Source: Pseudomonas mosselii
Lineage (GTDB): Bacteria > Pseudomonadota > Gammaproteobacteria > Pseudomonadales > Pseudomonadaceae
Reading direction: 5' to 3'
DNA: 64,000 nucleotides
NCBI RefSeq assembly: GCF_019823065.1
Contig: NZ_CP081966.1
Span: forward strand, 4,619,501 to 4,683,500
Made by a program: the position numbers and the translations under genes. Under the pieces are notes generated by a model. The model had not been told where the DNA came from, ran no database searches, and saw only the letters and a program-made list of their open reading frames with translations. Positions within the stretch are counted from its first letter, which is position 1. Every line of letters starts with the position of its first letter. Shown here piece by piece: positions 46,180-54,242 of this stretch.

Positions 46180-47868
46180 TCAGGCCTCCGGGAACACACC
46201 GTCCTCGAACGGCTCCTCGGTGCCGCCCTCGGTTTCCTCGGCAGTGTCGTTGACCTCTTCGGACAGCTCGGTCGCCTCGGCCTGCACCTCCACGGCCTCC
46301 TTCACCTGCTCCGCGAGTTCTTCACTCACCGCGTTGCCCATGTCTTCGACGATTTGCGGCAGTTGCTCATTGACCGTGGTGACGTTGGTGTTGGCCCCCG
46401 AGATATCACCGGCCTCGAGCTGGCCCTTGGCCTCGAGCAGGTTGTCGTTAGCCTCTTCCAACTGATCAGTCACCTCGATCTGGGCCAGGTCACTCACCTG
46501 TTCGGCGGCACTGTCGATCGCCCCGCCGGTATTGTCGCTGGCCACCGACTTGTACGCCGAACTGCCGCTGGCGCGCACTTCGGACACCGAGGAAGAGAAG
46601 TCCGCCTCGCTCGGCACCTCGGCCTGCACGTCGCCCGAAGCGTTGTCGAGCTGCGCCTGGTTGTCGGCACGGGCCTGGTCGCCAACCTGCTGGCCGTCGT
46701 TCTGCGCCTCCTGCACCTGCTCGGAAGTCGGGTCCTTGCCATCGTTCTCGTTGGCCTTGTCCTCGGCCAGCTTGTCATTCTTGGCAGTCAGTTTCTGCTT
46801 GAGGAAGTCCAGCGCCATCCACAATCCCATGGCTTCCATGAAGTACTTGAACACGGTGCCGAAGGTCAGGTTCGACCAGAACTTGTCCCAGCCAGACTCC
46901 GGCGCCAGCGGGATGGCGATCACCGACTTGCCCAGCATCGTGCCGGCCAGCAGGGTCAGGGCCGTGGTGTCCGAATCCTTGCCAGTGAAAGTGCCCTTGT
47001 AGCCAAAGGTGCAGTTCAGGGTAATGGCACCGCCGCTGCTGTCGATCAGCTGACCATTGGAGAACTGCAGCGTCTTGCTGCTGCCCTGGGACGTAAGGGT
47101 GATGGTATAGGCGCTCTGGCGGTCGCTGGGGTCGGCCGGCGACGGCGCGTTGGGTTTGCGGGTAAAGGTGATGGTGCCCTCGGAAGTCGCACCCTTGGCA
47201 TTCTGCCCGGTGGCTGCCGAGTACACATAGAAGGTCGCGCCCGGCTTGCCCTGGTCGTTCATTCCCCACAGATAGGCGAAGCCGCGCATCCAGGTGCTGA
47301 CCGCGACATAGCTGGGGAAGTCCAGGCCGGCAAATGTCGGATACTGGTTGAAGAACGCCGCCATCTTGGCATTGCCATCGGCGACCGAACCGCTGCTGAA
47401 GGCATCTTTCATGGCCGACTGGAAGTTGGCCGACATCTGCGACGAAGGCGAGGTCATGATGTTCTGGCAGAACGTCAGGGCGGTCTGCATATTCTTCGCC
47501 GCCGCTGCGGTGATATTGATGTCGGGGTAGGTCTCGGTGTTGAAGTCGAGTTGCTCGCCCACGGTCATCACCGGAAACAACGAGTCGGTCCTGGACACCA
47601 GCAGGTTGTAGAGATGCGAAACGGCGGTCTGATGCTGGCTGTTGACGTAGGTGTCATGCAGCGTGGCGGTGGTGCTGGCACCGTTTTTCAGCACGTTGCC
47701 GCTGGCCATCGACAGGAACTTGAGGTCCTGCAGATAGCCCTGTTCGCTGGTGCCGCTGGCGGCATGGGCATCGAGCACCACGACATCGACACCGGACTGG
47801 TTGCTCAGCTTCACGGTCTCGTTGATTTGCGTGGCGGTGCTCAGTTTGGCGGTATTGGCAGTGTTCAC
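46180..47868 (-). CDS. large protein of unknown function, acidic helical tail (operon gene 5)
   Basis: 562 residues, not recognised. Residues ~15-330 look beta-rich and contain segments paralogous to operon gene 1: VKLSNQSGVDVVVLDAHA, NLLVSRTDSLFPVMTVGE, KMAAFFNQYPTFAGLDFPSY, KTLQFSNGQLIDSS and a hydrophobic helix FKYFMEAMGLWMALDFL. The C-terminal ~215 residues are very acidic and helical (EELAEQVKEAVEVQAEATEL), probably coiled coil. No signal peptide. Start is GTG 47868 with AAGGAG upstream; the 50-codon upstream extension overlaps the previous gene and is rejected. Last gene before the terminator. Confidence 0.8.
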   Translation of the reverse strand: MNTANTAKLSTATQINETVKLSNQSGVDVVVLDAHAASGTSEQGYLQDLKFLSMASGNVLKNGASTTATLHDTYVNSQHQTAVSHLYNLLVSRTDSLFPVMTVGEQLDFNTETYPDINITAAAAKNMQTALTFCQNIMTSPSSQMSANFQSAMKDAFSSGSVADGNAKMAAFFNQYPTFAGLDFPSYVAVSTWMRGFAYLWGMNDQGKPGATFYVYSAATGQNAKGATSEGTITFTRKPNAPSPADPSDRQSAYTITLTSQGSSKTLQFSNGQLIDSSGGAITLNCTFGYKGTFTGKDSDTTALTLLAGTMLGKSVIAIPLAPESGWDKFWSNLTFGTVFKYFMEAMGLWMALDFLKQKLTAKNDKLAEDKANENDGKDPTSEQVQEAQNDGQQVGDQARADNQAQLDNASGDVQAEVPSEADFSSSVSEVRASGSSAYKSVASDNTGGAIDSAAEQVSDLAQIEVTDQLEEANDNLLEAKGQLEAGDISGANTNVTTVNEQLPQIVEDMGNAVSEELAEQVKEAVEVQAEATELSEEVNDTAEETEGGTEEPFEDGVFPEA

Positions 47869-47902: not shown

Positions 47903-49069
47903 TCAATACGCAATGCACGCCGTGGTGCTGCGCACCCCGGCCTGGTAGTGGGTGGACAGGATGCTGCCGCCGACCGGCAGGCCACGGCTGTCGAACTGCG
48001 CCCCGGCATAGTCCACATCGGTCACACGGATCACCCGCTGGCCGTCGCGGGCATACAGGGTCACCAGGGTGCGGCGAGGCGTGCCGCTGCTGCCCGGCTG
48101 GGTGAACCAGTCTTCGCGCCGCTGCAACAGGCTGCCGTCCTGGCGCCGCTGCACACTGCAGCGATCAGCGGCACGGTTGGGTGTCCAGGGGGCGCAGGAG
48201 CAGAGCAACGGCGCAGGCCTGACCCGCGTCATGACGCCTTCCAAATCCAACCGCTGCCGGCCCACCAGTTGCCCCTGGCGATAGCGCAGGGCCGTGGCGC
48301 TACGGGGTTTGCCGCAGGCGGCATAGGTGCGTACCACCAGTTCGCCGCCATGGACCTGGCGGCGGGCGTCGAACAGCACGCCGCCGTAGTCGGAGTTGAT
48401 GTGCTCCAGCACGGCATTGCCGCCTTCGATGTAGCGTGTGCCGATCACCTGGTAAGGCACCCCAGTGGAACCCAAGTAGGACTTGGCGCTGTAGGTCCGT
48501 GTGCCTCGGCCATCGGAATGACTTACGGCAAGCATGCCCCCGGTCAGTCGGGTCCCGGCCATCTGCGCCTGTCCATAGGACACGCAGGTGCGCCCCAACA
48601 GACGGCCATCGGCATCGAACTGTCGGGTGCTGTAGCTGGCATAGCACTCCTCGTCATAGGCCATCTGCGCCTGGTGGACGAGACGCCCCTGGCCATCGTT
48701 TACCGACAGCGTGGCCAGGCCGTGGGATGGCGTGCCGGCGGCAGTGAGGTGCAGGGCATCGTACTGGCCGAACACCGAGCGCCGCACCTGGCCCTGGTCA
48801 TCGAGCAGACGGGTGATCGAGGAACGCGCCCGCCCCTGGGCATCAATCAGCAGATGGCTGTCAGCATGGGGGACGCCCCCGCCGTCCACCGAGCGGTAGC
48901 GCACCTCCAGGCCGCCATCGGCCTGGCCGTGGTATTCGGCCCGGCCCCGGGTGGCGACGTTCACCCCGTCCGGGCCGTAGTGCACCAGCGACACCGCCTT
49001 GGGCGGCCGGGTGGCGTAGCCGGGATCGACCAGACCATCGAGCAGGCCCTGCAAGGCTTGGTTGTTCAT
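47903..49069 (-). CDS. YD-like repeat protein of unknown function (operon gene 4)
   Basis: 388 residues, no confident family. Throughout there are short beta-hairpin-like units such as LLIDAQGRARSSITRLLDDQGQVRRSVFGQ, TRQFDADGRLLGRTCVSY, RYIEGGNAVLEHINSDYGGVLFDARRQV and TLYARDGQRVIRVTDVDYAGAQFDSRG (cited in part), recalling YD/RHS or MORN-like repeats but too divergent to assign. Several cysteines cluster at ~290-310. No signal peptide. Its ATG overlaps the stop of the dioxygenase gene by four bases, so the two are translationally coupled. Confidence 0.75.
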   Translation of the reverse strand: MNNQALQGLLDGLVDPGYATRPPKAVSLVHYGPDGVNVATRGRAEYHGQADGGLEVRYRSVDGGGVPHADSHLLIDAQGRARSSITRLLDDQGQVRRSVFGQYDALHLTAAGTPSHGLATLSVNDGQGRLVHQAQMAYDEECYASYSTRQFDADGRLLGRTCVSYGQAQMAGTRLTGGMLAVSHSDGRGTRTYSAKSYLGSTGVPYQVIGTRYIEGGNAVLEHINSDYGGVLFDARRQVHGGELVVRTYAACGKPRSATALRYRQGQLVGRQRLDLEGVMTRVRPAPLLCSCAPWTPNRAADRCSVQRRQDGSLLQRREDWFTQPGSSGTPRRTLVTLYARDGQRVIRVTDVDYAGAQFDSRGLPVGGSILSTHYQAGVRSTTACIAY

Positions 49070-49809
49070 GTCGGTACTCCTTCACTGACACTGTCAGGCG
49101 CGAGGATCCCGGCCAGGTGGTCGAGCAAGGCGACCCCTTCGGCGCGGGTGGTGGCTTTCTTGTAGGAGAAGCGCATGTCCAGGCTCACCCGGGTACGCTC
49201 GCTGTCGTTGCGCATCGAGCCATGCCCCAGGTAGCCGCCATCGAAGATCAACACCTGGCCGTAGCGCAGGCTGACCGGGCTGTAGTCGGCACTGCCATAG
49301 TCGCTTTCCAGCCACAGGGCGGCGCCTGCCTCGACATCGGTGAACGGCATCCAGAAGTTGACCTGGTCGATGCGCTCGGTAACACAGATATCGTGGTGGA
49401 ACGAACTCACGCTTGGCGTGCCGGCCAGGTGCACGCGCAGCTTCGGATGGCTGGTATAGGAAATGCCACGCCCCACCAATGGCGCCAGCACCTGGAGCAT
49501 GAAGGCATGGTAGAGGGTCCAGAAATCGGCCGTGGCAGGCTGACGCTCCATCATGTCGCTGAGCAGCAGGTTGTCCCTTGGGCGCAGCCGCGCCGGGCGG
49601 CCACGCTCGAGGTAGTGCTGGCGCAGATACAGGTGCAGCCGGTCCAGGCGCTGCACCTTGTACACGTCCCGTGTCAGCGCCGCGGCGAAGGGAAAGCGCC
49701 GGGTGTCGTAATCCAGGACCAGACGGTTGCGCCGTGGCCGGGCACCGGCCTCGGCCATCAGCCAGGCACGATCCACCCCGGCCAGCAACGGCTGCACGCG
49801 CATGTTCAT
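49066..49809 (-). CDS. phytanoyl-CoA hydroxylase-like Fe(II)/2OG dioxygenase (operon gene 3)
   Basis: 247 residues. A PhyH-type facial triad is readable: His138-x-Asp140 (SSFHHDICV), distal His196 (YLGHGSMR) and a likely 2-oxoglutarate arginine at 207 (ERTRVSLDMRF). QVNFWMPFTD and GAALWLESDYGSADYSPVSL are typical of PhyH/StrG-like small-molecule hydroxylases. In this operon it would be a tailoring enzyme, possibly hydroxylating the peptide or side chains. ATG 49809 overlaps the methyltransferase stop (ATGA); an internal ATG two codons later is also possible. Confidence 0.82.
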   Translation of the reverse strand: MNMRVQPLLAGVDRAWLMAEAGARPRRNRLVLDYDTRRFPFAAALTRDVYKVQRLDRLHLYLRQHYLERGRPARLRPRDNLLLSDMMERQPATADFWTLYHAFMLQVLAPLVGRGISYTSHPKLRVHLAGTPSVSSFHHDICVTERIDQVNFWMPFTDVEAGAALWLESDYGSADYSPVSLRYGQVLIFDGGYLGHGSMRNDSERTRVSLDMRFSYKKATTRAEGVALLDHLAGILAPDSVSEGVPT

Positions 49810-52226
49810 CCGGCATCCTCCATTTCATCCTGGCGCAACCGCGCCAGCGCCTCGCGCAACAGGCGCAGGTTGCCGCGCGCGCGGTCATAGCCATGCCAGA
49901 GGAAGATCCCGCCCTTGTCGCTGGCCGCCACCATCACCGCCACCAGGTGCCGCCAGGCCCATTCGGGCAAGCCCAGCCGTGGCTGCTCGAGCAGTTGGTC
50001 TATCCACAGTGGCTCGATCAGGGCCATGCCGCGCAGTTGCACCTTGTTGCCCGCGGCGCTGCGACCCTGGCCATGCAACAGCGGCTTGAGCGTGATCGGG
50101 TCGAGGGTCACGTCCAACTGGCCGGACTCCACGGCCGGCGGGCCCCCCTGCCACTGGATGCGTCCCTCGCGAAATTCGGCGGTTACCGGCTTGCCGGCGA
50201 TCTCCAGCCCGTAGGGTCCCAGGCGCAACGCCAGCAACTCAGCCAGGCGACCATGCACCAGGCGCAGGCGGTAAGCGCCCTGGGCCCACTGCGCCAGGTC
50301 CTCGAAACGACGCGTCGACAATGCCAGGCGTCGATCACCGATGCGTGTGTCACGTCCGTTGAACAGTACTTCGCCGGGCAATGCCACGCCCTCGCGCAAC
50401 ACATCCACCCCTTGGCTCGCCGAGGCCGATGGCACGATGCGCAGCGCCTCCCCGGCGACTCGATAATCCCCTACCGCCAGGCAGGCCGGACGCGCCAGCG
50501 ATTGCCCGCGCAAGGCCACCTTGTAACCGCTCCCGGCCTGCTCCCCGGCGGGCCACACCAGCCCGATCCAGCTACGCCCGCCCTGCACCGAGAGATCCGA
50601 TTGCAGGTAACCGGAACTGCCATTGCCGGCCTCGGCGCTCCAGGTCAGCACGCCCGACTGGTAGCGCACGCCCACCAGCGGTTGGCCATCGAGGTCGACA
50701 CGCAGACCGGCGTTCTTCATGCGGCTGAACAACGAGAGGCTCATGCGCCGACTGCTGTCGAGATAGAAGCCGCTCCAGGGCGCCAGGCTCGACTGCAGCA
50801 GCGCATTGAGCTCGGCATTCATGCCCGGCCAGTCGATGCTCAGGCCAGCCTTGCGCGACCAGGCCGCGGCGGCAGCGCGCAGTTCGCCCGGCGCGGCGGC
50901 GCTGAGCGCCCGGTGCAAGGCGCTGCTGGCCGAGGTATAGGTCAACAGGTGCTCGACCCCTTCCCGATTGCCCGGATGACGCTGGGCATCGGCGCCCTTG
51001 GCCGCCAGTTGCACCGCGCCCGGGTCGCGTTGCCCCAGCAGATGCCGTTCGCGGGCATCCAGCCCGCCCCAGGCCTGCACCGCGGCCTGGGGGTCGTCGC
51101 GGTACTGCCGGCGCAACTCGGCATCGTCGGATAAAGCAAGAATGAAGCGCCCGGCACCGGTGTCGGCCTGCCACTGGTAGCTGGCCGGCACATCGAAGCG
51201 GGCGAAATCGCTGAAGGCACGACGTTCACGCTTGTCGTAGCGGTCGATCACCCGCAACGGATCACTGGCGGCGCGCACCGGTTGGCCGGGGCGGATCAAT
51301 CCCAGCCGCTCGAGCATCTGCGGATCAGACTGCCCGGCGGTGCGCGGCGGCAGGTAGAAGGTGGAGATACCAGTCACCCATGATTGCGCCAGCGGATCGC
51401 GCAGGCTGGCCAGGGTCTGCCGGTCGATCAGCGGATCGATCCCCGGGTAGCGCGAACCGACATAGTTGATCACCGGATGCTCCGGGCCGTAGAGATCCTC
51501 CAGGTAGTCGAGCAGCACGGCAAAGTTGCTGTTCAGGTATCCCTGGCGTCGGTAGCCCAGTTCACCGATCAGGCCGACCTGCCAGAGCACCAGGTGCAGC
51601 CCCGGGTCCGGCTGGCGGCGACGGATCAGCATGTCGGTGGCTTCGTACATCTGCATGCCGGGTTGGCTGGGGTCCACGCCCAGGTCGGCACACAGGGTGT
51701 CGAGGGCGCTGACTGCCGCGCGCATGCTGGCGTGGTGCCCTTCACGGCGGGCGATGGTCACGGCGCGATGGGTCGACAGCACGAAGACGCCGGGGTGGCC
51801 ATAAAAGATCGCCACTACATGCTCGCCGTTGCGTACGTGATGCAGCATGGCCTCGGTCATCTGCATGTAGGTCAGGTAACGCGGCTTGCTGTCGTCGTAG
51901 AGCACATACAGGTCATAGGCGTCCGGACGCTGCGAGAGGATCCAGATCTTGGTGGCCGGGTCGGCGACGCAATAGAACACATGGTCGGCGACGAGGATCC
52001 GTGCCTCGTCGCTGCGGCTGAAGTCCGAAGCCTCGATGCCCGAGCCGAGGATCTCGAGGGTGCCGGGGCGCTGCGGCGCAACCAGCAGCGCCGGGTCGTC
52101 GCTGATACTCGCGGCCCTGGCCGCGATGGCCTGGGCCAGCCGCCGCCAGCGACGACGGTGCTCCTCGGCACTCGGGTAATGGGTAGCTTGCGCGTGTTCG
52201 CGGTTGTTGCGGGTCGTCATGCTCAT
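49806..52226 (-). CDS. borosin-type peptide alpha-N-methyltransferase with clasp domain and unknown C-terminal region (operon gene 2)
   Basis: 806 residues in three parts. (1) ~55-295: a tetrapyrrole-methylase fold strikingly like OphMA: GTLEILGSGIEAS, VFYCVADPAT, DLYVLYDDSKPRYLTYMQM (Tyr110, Arg116, Tyr120 align with OphMA's catalytic Tyr-Arg-Tyr, from memory), AIFYGHPGVFVLSTHRAVTIA, YEATDMLIR, GPEHPVINYV and GISTFYLPP. (2) ~335-412: helical segment FILALSDDAELRRQYRDDPQ...LDARERHLLG aligning with the borosin-binding/clasp domain. (3) ~413-806: beta-rich region I cannot assign, with two loosely similar units near 520-610 and 665-730. SAM-dependent methylation of peptide backbone amides is the family reaction. 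A GAGGAG site precedes ATG 52226. Confidence 0.85.
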   Translation of the reverse strand: MSMTTRNNREHAQATHYPSAEEHRRRWRRLAQAIAARAASISDDPALLVAPQRPGTLEILGSGIEASDFSRSDEARILVADHVFYCVADPATKIWILSQRPDAYDLYVLYDDSKPRYLTYMQMTEAMLHHVRNGEHVVAIFYGHPGVFVLSTHRAVTIARREGHHASMRAAVSALDTLCADLGVDPSQPGMQMYEATDMLIRRRQPDPGLHLVLWQVGLIGELGYRRQGYLNSNFAVLLDYLEDLYGPEHPVINYVGSRYPGIDPLIDRQTLASLRDPLAQSWVTGISTFYLPPRTAGQSDPQMLERLGLIRPGQPVRAASDPLRVIDRYDKRERRAFSDFARFDVPASYQWQADTGAGRFILALSDDAELRRQYRDDPQAAVQAWGGLDARERHLLGQRDPGAVQLAAKGADAQRHPGNREGVEHLLTYTSASSALHRALSAAAPGELRAAAAAWSRKAGLSIDWPGMNAELNALLQSSLAPWSGFYLDSSRRMSLSLFSRMKNAGLRVDLDGQPLVGVRYQSGVLTWSAEAGNGSSGYLQSDLSVQGGRSWIGLVWPAGEQAGSGYKVALRGQSLARPACLAVGDYRVAGEALRIVPSASASQGVDVLREGVALPGEVLFNGRDTRIGDRRLALSTRRFEDLAQWAQGAYRLRLVHGRLAELLALRLGPYGLEIAGKPVTAEFREGRIQWQGGPPAVESGQLDVTLDPITLKPLLHGQGRSAAGNKVQLRGMALIEPLWIDQLLEQPRLGLPEWAWRHLVAVMVAASDKGGIFLWHGYDRARGNLRLLREALARLRQDEMEDAG

Positions 52227-52238
52227 GCGGTTCGCTCC

Positions 52239-54056
52239 TCAGGCGCCTTGCGCGGCCAGGTACTTCATCGCAACACTCGCCCCCACCTTCACCGGCAGTG
52301 GCTTGCCCTGGTAGGTAGCGTTGCCGAGTATCACGAAGGCCTTGCAGGCCTGGTCACCGGTGTAGGGCGCCATGCTGGCCACCACCTGGTTCTCGTCGTC
52401 ACTGGACCAGCGCCAGTTGGCCGCATCGTTGTCGGCCTTGGTGTTGCCGGTCTGCAACAGCGTGGAAATCGTCACCCCGACGGTCTTCGGATCACCCTGC
52501 ACTTCGGCCACGTACTGGCTGAAGGTCTGCCAGCGAGCCGCCACCGGCTTGTCGTCCTGCAGCATGTAGTTGACCAGCACGCCCACCCCGGTGCTCTGGC
52601 GTGGTTGCAGGTTCTCGATGTCCTTCTCGTCCTGGTTCTTCCAGGCCTGGAAGATCGCGCCCACGCTCTGGAAGGCGACGTAGATCACCGCCCCTTCGAT
52701 CAGGGTCGGCAAGGCCTTGGTCATGATCCAGTTGCCGACGCCGTTGACCACCTTCATCAGCGCGCCGGGCTCGACGTTCACATCGGTGTCGATGTCCACG
52801 TCGACGTCGATGTCGATATCCGTCTCGGTGTCGGTCACCACATCGATGTCCACGTCGATGTCCACATCCACGTCCACATCGACCACGGCGATGAAATCGA
52901 CGTCCACATCGATGTCGATATCCACGTCGACGTCCACATCGATGTCGATGTCGATATCCACGTCCACATCGACGTCGATATCCACGTCGATGTCCACGTC
53001 GACGTTGACAGGATCCGCCGCGTCGCCCACGCCACTCCCGGCGCCGGCGGTGTCACCGGTGCTGTTGAGGCTGTCCTGGATGCGGCTGATCAGCTTGCCG
53101 GTGTTCTGCGCCAGCCACTGCATGCCGTTGGCCACGGTGCCCAGCAGGTTGATCGCGGCGTCGAGGGTCATCGCCAGCTGCACGGTGAACAGCGCGCCAT
53201 AGGCCATGTCGTAGGCCACCGCGTACCAGGGTAGTTGCGGACTCTGGTAGGACTGGGCGATGAACTGCTGGCCGTCATAGGTACCGACGAAGGCCCAGGT
53301 GATCACGTCGGGTTTGCCCTCCCACGTGAGGTCGCGGATGAACCCGGTGGTGTTGAAGCCGTGCTTGTCGTCGGCGCCAGGGCTGGTCAACTGGCCGTAC
53401 TGGAACTGCAGCGCAGTGCTGCCGCCCGTGCTGGGGCTGTAGTTGGCCTTGCCGCCGGCGATGGTCAGCGTGCCCACAGAGGTGGTGGGCAGGATGAAAC
53501 CCATGGAGTTGCCGCTGGGCGGCTCGTAGCAGTAGTAGGTACCCGGATAGGCGTACAGCTGGTTGTTGGCCCAGTAGCCCAAGGCCGAGAACAGCGCGAA
53601 ACTCACCCCGGGGTAGCCATTGGCGGCGAAGAAAGAGGCAGCCTTGTCGTTGAGGGCGTTGGCCGGGGTTTCACTGACCAGCTCGGAGAATTCCAGGGCG
53701 GTGGGGGTGAAGGGCTGGCTGATGAACGACTGGTAGAACGCCCAACCGGAGTTGGCCGTGGTCACATCCTGATTGCCGACCTGAACCTGCTCCGAATCCG
53801 GCAGCAAGGCATTGGCCACCTGCACCAGCAAGGGAAACTGGTCGCTCTGGCGCACGATCACCAGTCGCGCCAGGCTCTCGGTAAGTGGCAGCGTGGTGCT
53901 CTGGTTGGCGCCCACCGAGCCTTGCAGGGTATACACGGCGGTATAGTCCGCCGGATTGGTGGAAGGCGGATCGGTCGCTGGGTTCTTGTTGAGGGTGGTG
54001 TAGATGTCCAGCGCCAGGTTGGTGTTGTTGGTGATCTGGACGGGGTAGGTGGCCAT
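52239..54056 (-). CDS. large protein with Asp-Val/Asp-Ile repeat (operon gene 1)
   Basis: 605 residues, not recognised. Residues ~1-320 are a beta-rich region shared at low similarity with operon gene 5 (VQITNNTNLALDIYTTLNKN, ARLVIVRQSDQFPLLVQV, GYPGVSFALFSALGYW, ALQFQYGQLTSPG), then hydrophobic helices (~290-330). Residues ~349-427 are a nearly pure alternation of Asp with Val or Ile, briefly interrupted by FIAVV and VVTDTET. After this come a hydrophobic segment (LPTLIEGAVIYVAFQSVGAIF) and a C-terminal globular part. No signal peptide. Start MATYPVQITN follows GGGAG; an upstream 46-codon extension is Arg/Cys-rich and non-coding in character. Confidence 0.8.
   Translation of the reverse strand: MATYPVQITNNTNLALDIYTTLNKNPATDPPSTNPADYTAVYTLQGSVGANQSTTLPLTESLARLVIVRQSDQFPLLVQVANALLPDSEQVQVGNQDVTTANSGWAFYQSFISQPFTPTALEFSELVSETPANALNDKAASFFAANGYPGVSFALFSALGYWANNQLYAYPGTYYCYEPPSGNSMGFILPTTSVGTLTIAGGKANYSPSTGGSTALQFQYGQLTSPGADDKHGFNTTGFIRDLTWEGKPDVITWAFVGTYDGQQFIAQSYQSPQLPWYAVAYDMAYGALFTVQLAMTLDAAINLLGTVANGMQWLAQNTGKLISRIQDSLNSTGDTAGAGSGVGDAADPVNVDVDIDVDIDVDVDVDIDIDIDVDVDVDIDIDVDVDFIAVVDVDVDVDIDVDIDVVTDTETDIDIDVDVDIDTDVNVEPGALMKVVNGVGNWIMTKALPTLIEGAVIYVAFQSVGAIFQAWKNQDEKDIENLQPRQSTGVGVLVNYMLQDDKPVAARWQTFSQYVAEVQGDPKTVGVTISTLLQTGNTKADNDAANWRWSSDDENQVVASMAPYTGDQACKAFVILGNATYQGKPLPVKVGASVAMKYLAAQGA
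52780..53008. repeat. degenerate hexanucleotide tandem repeat encoding (Asp-Val/Ile)n
   Basis: About 229 bases made mainly of the units GTCGAT, GTCCAC, ATCGAC and GTCGAC in changing order. Frame and amino-acid pattern are kept while third positions vary, so the dipeptide pattern, not the DNA, appears to be under selection; slippage could change its length. Confidence 0.9.
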
Positions 54057-54242
54057 CTCGATGCATCTCCCTTGCCTTCGAACAGCGCCAGGGCGCCGGG
54101 TTGAGACTCGACGGGCCAAGGAAGAGGAAAGGAGCGCGAGCGCGCAGGCGTGCAGACGGCATACGCAGTGGGATGCGAGCCGTATGCCGTCCATGGTCGG
54201 GGATCCAGACTCGTCCTGAGGCTGTCAGTCAGGGTGTCATGC

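Follow-up and report, generated by a model that had tools for sequence, protein, structure and literature searches.

The window, a 64,000-nucleotide stretch of Pseudomonas mosselii DNA, encodes what we regard, with a probability of roughly 0.85, as a split borosin operon, in which the methyltransferase and its clasp lie in one protein and an alternating (V/I/T)-D tract in the protein of the upstream gene is predicted to be methylated in trans. We infer that this tract is the core of the system. The focus thereby shifts from the long tail of the enzyme to the likely substrate next door; the initial annotation read the enzyme correctly in part and missed the neighbouring gene as its probable substrate. 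Within a split layout of a known type, the points of interest are the odd substrate pattern and the conserved partner genes.

The enzyme gene occupies 49806..52226 on the minus strand and encodes an 806-residue borosin-type alpha-N-methyltransferase with a clasp, or borosin-binding domain (BBD), and a C-terminal beta-barrel region, the open reading frame being present as first annotated. A phmmer search against PDB sequences aligned OphMA to enzyme residues 53–422 (E 2.5e-73) and also matched dbOphMA, MroMA and SonM (SonM at E ~2e-36), while a 73-row profile of the enzyme family matched OphMA at E 3.2e-110. The borosin likeness originally proposed for this gene is confirmed. The Pfam TP_methylase score was borderline, with 27.3 bits falling marginally below the cut-off of 27.8 and 28.9 bits, obtained in a six-frame genome search, marginally above it. 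The methyltransferase domain comprises residues 53–310 (51297..52070, minus strand), assigned from the OphMA match and the residue spacing shared with KchMA. In KchMA, the catalytic, SAM-binding and substrate-binding residues are Y70, Y73, R79, Y83, Y105, S136 and Q179 (PMC11395268); their counterparts in the enzyme are Y107, Y110, R116, Y120, Y142, S173 and Q216, with identical spacings. Across the 73-row alignment, Y110, R116, Y120, Y142 and Q216 are invariant and Y107 is at least 90% conserved, whereas S173, unlike the other six, lies outside the 90%-conserved columns.

The clasp, residues 331–412 (50991..51236, minus strand), falls inside the OphMA alignment and is helical in the predicted model, in agreement with its earlier placement at about residues 335–412. 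The binding domain of SonA gave a weak profile match to residues 354–399 (E about 0.6). Superposition of the enzyme monomer model on OphMA yielded an r.m.s.d. of 17–19.5 Å, which we take to reflect a differently placed clasp in the monomer model. Judged by sequence match and predicted fold, the enzyme is a member of the OphMA family and, by analogy, is predicted to N-methylate the backbone of a core iteratively.

Beyond residue 412, the chain continues for 394 residues, the long tail that had drawn attention to this gene (residues 413–806 with the stop codon, 49806..50990, minus strand). The model predicts, with high confidence as far as about residue 800, a folded region of helices, beta barrels (one at ~640–737) and a long, conserved terminal helix, and the 73-row alignment contains invariant Trp and Gly positions here. 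A whole-enzyme search returned 283 relatives among 7,994 scored candidates, and the best 120 of the 283 were examined for tail and length. Nearly all of these (113 of 120) are 730–830 residues long, and most cover more than 90% of the query. The enzyme might in principle methylate itself on a cryptic core within its own 390-residue C-terminal region, as fused borosins do, among them the bacterial enzyme KchMA, which is methylated within residues 742–796 (PMC11395268). Against this, the tail is predicted to be folded and carries the invariant Trp and Gly positions, and a run of at least five X-acidic units is absent from all of the best 120 of 283 relatives. The enzyme's own chain likewise holds no alternating acidic run, so that such a core was not found C-terminal to the clasp in the same chain, the arrangement of fused borosins (types I–III); the search addressed alternating acidic runs specifically. 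From sequence and model, the tail is predicted to be a folded domain rather than a core, and self-methylation appears very unlikely.

The likely precursor lies directly upstream at 52239..54056 (minus strand), its stop at 52239 adjoining the enzyme start at 52226. Read from the ATG at 54056 it has 605 residues, the same extent as the database protein P0121; the mechanical open reading frame begins at 54194. Its outstanding feature is a 78-residue tract (52776..53009, minus strand), the likely core, of almost strict V/I/T-D alternation, interrupted once, at its centre, by the motif FIAVV (52881..52895, minus strand), for which relatives carry FLAVV, VFAVI, ALVVV, IVFV and other variants. Val and Asp codons are mixed, and Ile is encoded by ATC throughout. 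The longest run comprises 18 X-D units; shuffling the whole protein 20,000 times never gave more than 8, and shuffling just the tract 20,000 times never more than 10. To our knowledge, a 78-residue (V/I/T)-Asp tract would be an unusually long methylation target.

The pattern is conserved among homologues. When 42 of the 55 precursor hits were aligned, most D columns were more than 90% D, and the X columns held almost solely V, I and T. In runs from 52 hits, X was V 802, I 444 and T 293 times out of 1,573, and its partner was D 1,546 and E 27 times, the search pattern admitting D or E alone. The central break recurs in 49 of the 55 hits of the precursor search and in 6 of the 7 of the fused-protein search described below (P0175 being common to both lists). 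The precursor hits that lack it are P0122, P0141, P0152, P0170, P0172 and P0174, the last of which is named a kinase and is probably unrelated to the precursor. In the predicted model the tract has a pLDDT below 50 and is flanked by helices and by a helical region, some 178 residues in length (52239..52775, minus strand). Most of the 55 hits have 173–195 residues after the core, with longer and truncated exceptions, and the region contains invariant positions. Pfam found no LigA or BBD match in the precursor, BBDs being widely divergent, and a profile comparison of enzyme and precursor detected no shared domain to account for docking (probability 0.8%). A small beta barrel that pairs with the solved chains 6czg_A and 1jmx_A occurs in the enzyme model (640–737) as well as in the precursor model (166–270); the two barrels have no detectable sequence similarity, and the Z value of the precursor is within the common range.

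We compared 25 loci encoding relatives of the enzyme. At 19 of them a tract gene lies directly upstream, ending no more than 310 bases from the start of the enzyme match. To judge by their titles, these 19 represent gamma-, beta- and alphaproteobacteria, Nannocystis, Paenibacillus and cyanobacteria, which places the tract gene beside the enzyme in four phyla (Proteobacteria, Myxococcota, Bacillota and Cyanobacteria). Among the other six, the contigs of L016 and L019 end just before the enzyme, and L026, L027, L029 and L032, which have full flanks, contain no tract gene in the flanking DNA examined; their enzymes are longer, at 960–965 residues. These four loci suggest that some members of the family act on a different substrate or on one whose gene lies elsewhere. 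An oxygenase gene co-occurs at 23 of the 25 loci, a paralogue of the precursor, here called PAR, at 18, and a 388-residue protein at 7; the position of PAR varies, on either side of the cluster. Beyond these genes, no further family recurred in more than three of the 25 loci, counting open reading frames of at least 90 residues in flanks that extended to at most 10 kb and were shorter at some loci, several of which are cut by contig ends.

The case for the tract as substrate rests most strongly on proteins in which it is fused to the enzyme. When a search was seeded with P0175, a protein without the methyltransferase end, the 20 hits returned included P0176–P0180. These five proteins (1,173–1,219 residues) combine the methyltransferase, the binding domain, the barrel region, a hydrophobic stretch, transmembrane-like by eye, and the tract in a single chain, which ties tract to enzyme. 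They share 37–44% identity with the window enzyme over 543–766 aligned positions, and a Pfam analysis of three of them identified a PF00590 domain. Their tract lies near the C-terminus, with the break reading FIAVV, FIAIV or VLFV. A more remote hit, P0181, does not have the central motif. The existence of chains with a C-terminal tract might seem to favour self-methylation; in these proteins, however, the tract follows the C-terminal barrel region instead of lying within it, as a cryptic core in the window enzyme would have to. The fused relatives offer single-chain test proteins.

Downstream of the enzyme, the gene order suggests one operon, as 4-base overlaps join the enzyme and oxygenase genes and likewise the oxygenase and the following gene; a promoter and terminator scan of the window added nothing to this reading. 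The oxygenase (49066..49809, minus strand, 247 residues) is PhyH-like, of the Fe(II)/2-oxoglutarate type, and scores under the Pfam and NCBIfam cut-offs. We take H138-x-D140 and H196 to be its metal-binding H-x-D...H triad and R207 the distal arginine. When the window protein was aligned with the best-matching piece of 23 loci, one per locus, H138 and D140 were present in all 24 rows and H196 and R207 in 23; the one exception is consistent with L013, where the aligned piece stops at residue 186. The next gene (47903..49069, minus strand) encodes the 388-residue protein, to which no function was assigned; repeats were judged by eye, and neither Pfam nor NCBIfam gave a match.

PAR (46180..47868, minus strand) begins with a region resembling the N-terminal part of the precursor and continues with a hydrophobic segment and a long charged tail. 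We infer a GTG start at 47868; the mechanical open reading frame runs from 48018. An hhalign comparison matched PAR to the precursor over 311 columns with 99.5% probability (E 3.4e-23). This homology, together with its presence at 18 of 25 loci, could make PAR the substrate in place of the tract protein, or a second one. Its charged tail carries no tract in any of 14 aligned rows, however, and it is the tract that the fused proteins retain; a substrate role for PAR in place of or beside the tract protein appears very unlikely.

In the split borosin reading, the enzyme is expected to work as a dimer, its clasp assisting in placing the peptide in the active site of the partner subunit, by analogy with OphMA and SonM, for which such placement has been described (PMC8429565). 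The peptide would be supplied in trans by the second protein, the tract protein, and the enzyme's C-terminal barrels may dock this precursor. Mainly the Val, Ile and Thr amides of the tract would be methylated, since KchMA favours nonpolar residues and methylates Asp to some extent. The oxygenase may then hydroxylate the tract.

The initial annotation was right about the enzyme, the clasp and the long tail; its suggestion of an undescribed architecture did not hold, the published Class 2 layout covering it. Borosins have been divided into types 0–X and a new type XI, grouped in four classes, and according to the legend of Figure 1 of that source, Class 2 joins the enzyme and its binding domain in a single protein and has the core in another (PMC11395268). 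This is the arrangement observed here, with enzyme and BBD together and an upstream tract gene at 19 of 25 loci, taking the tract as the core, and Class 2 split borosins and type VIII have been reported (Imani et al., 2022; Cho et al., 2022; both cited in PMC11395268). In the wording of PMC11395268, type VIII has about 160 residues after the core, a description that the roughly 178 residues after the tract here fit. The same source assigns RceM, AinM, PruM and PmoM collectively to types V, VII and VIII; going by word order, PmoM, the last of the four names, would be type VIII, and its name suggests that it may be a P. mosselii gene or an orthologue of the window enzyme. If this is right, the locus or an orthologue has already been published. 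Among our 25 loci, L009, also from Pseudomonas mosselii, is the closest, at 98–99% identity. What the present analysis adds is the assignment of the substrate, the pairing of precursor and PAR as paralogues, and the fused relatives, some of which may already be in print.

The fungal fused enzymes OphMA, dbOphMA and MroMA share methyltransferase and clasp with the window enzyme, alignable over enzyme residues 53–422, but carry the core C-terminally in the same chain (PMC8429565), where the window enzyme has helices and beta barrels. KchMA, fused and of type III, shares the catalytic residues with their spacings, a long chain and an alternating acidic core, type III bacterial cores having acidic residues that alternate with others; its core ends its own chain, whereas the likely core here lies in a separate protein (PMC11395268). 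The type IV split pair SonM/SonA also has its core in a separate protein, and its methyltransferase domain is alignable (E about 2e-36), but SonA itself carries the binding domain (PMC8429565), which here resides on the enzyme.

If methylated, the tract may be excised by a protease encoded elsewhere and set free as a peptide, as in ordinary RiPP maturation, an outcome compatible with a split borosin and one that we judge evenly balanced. The borosin products known to us are released peptides. On the other hand, no recurring gene to cut or export a peptide was found among the 25 loci, several of them cut by contig ends, the tract is internal, the roughly 178 residues behind it include invariant positions, and two homologues extend into carbohydrate-binding domains above cut-off: F5/8 type C in P0142 and a mannose-binding lectin (B_lectin) in P0159. 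Taken together, these features suggest that the tract may stay inside a large protein, and the lectin-type extensions suggest that the protein as a whole acts at a surface or binds a target. In the same analysis, P0167 and P0168 gave BNR-like matches below cut-off, and three other proteins gave none. Tentatively, and with the odds rather against it, methylation might yield a stable, non-aggregating pair of amphipathic Val/Ile-Asp strands hinged at FIAVV and kept in a large two-component complex of precursor and PAR, probably acting at a membrane or surface, with no small peptide formed. If true, ribosomal backbone N-methylation would here be a modification with a function in a working protein. 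It raises the question of whether backbone methylation serves solely the release of small peptides or also tunes a segment of a large protein.

Four relatives differ from the pattern described above. In Pseudoalteromonas, L026 and L027 (10001–16963) encode a 965-residue enzyme with extra repeats, an oxygenase and then radical SAM and DUF364 proteins, the last two assigned by Pfam on L026 only; they possibly represent a different borosin branch with another substrate. In Paenibacillus, L029 (9968–12847) and L032 (9866–12751) encode relatives of 960–962 residues with neither precursor nor oxygenase in the flanking DNA examined, and their neighbours resemble ABC-transporter genes by eye. Within its own genus, the enzyme gene is present in 3 of 398 genomes, counting that of the window, a rarity that contrasts with the spread of the enzyme family over several phyla.
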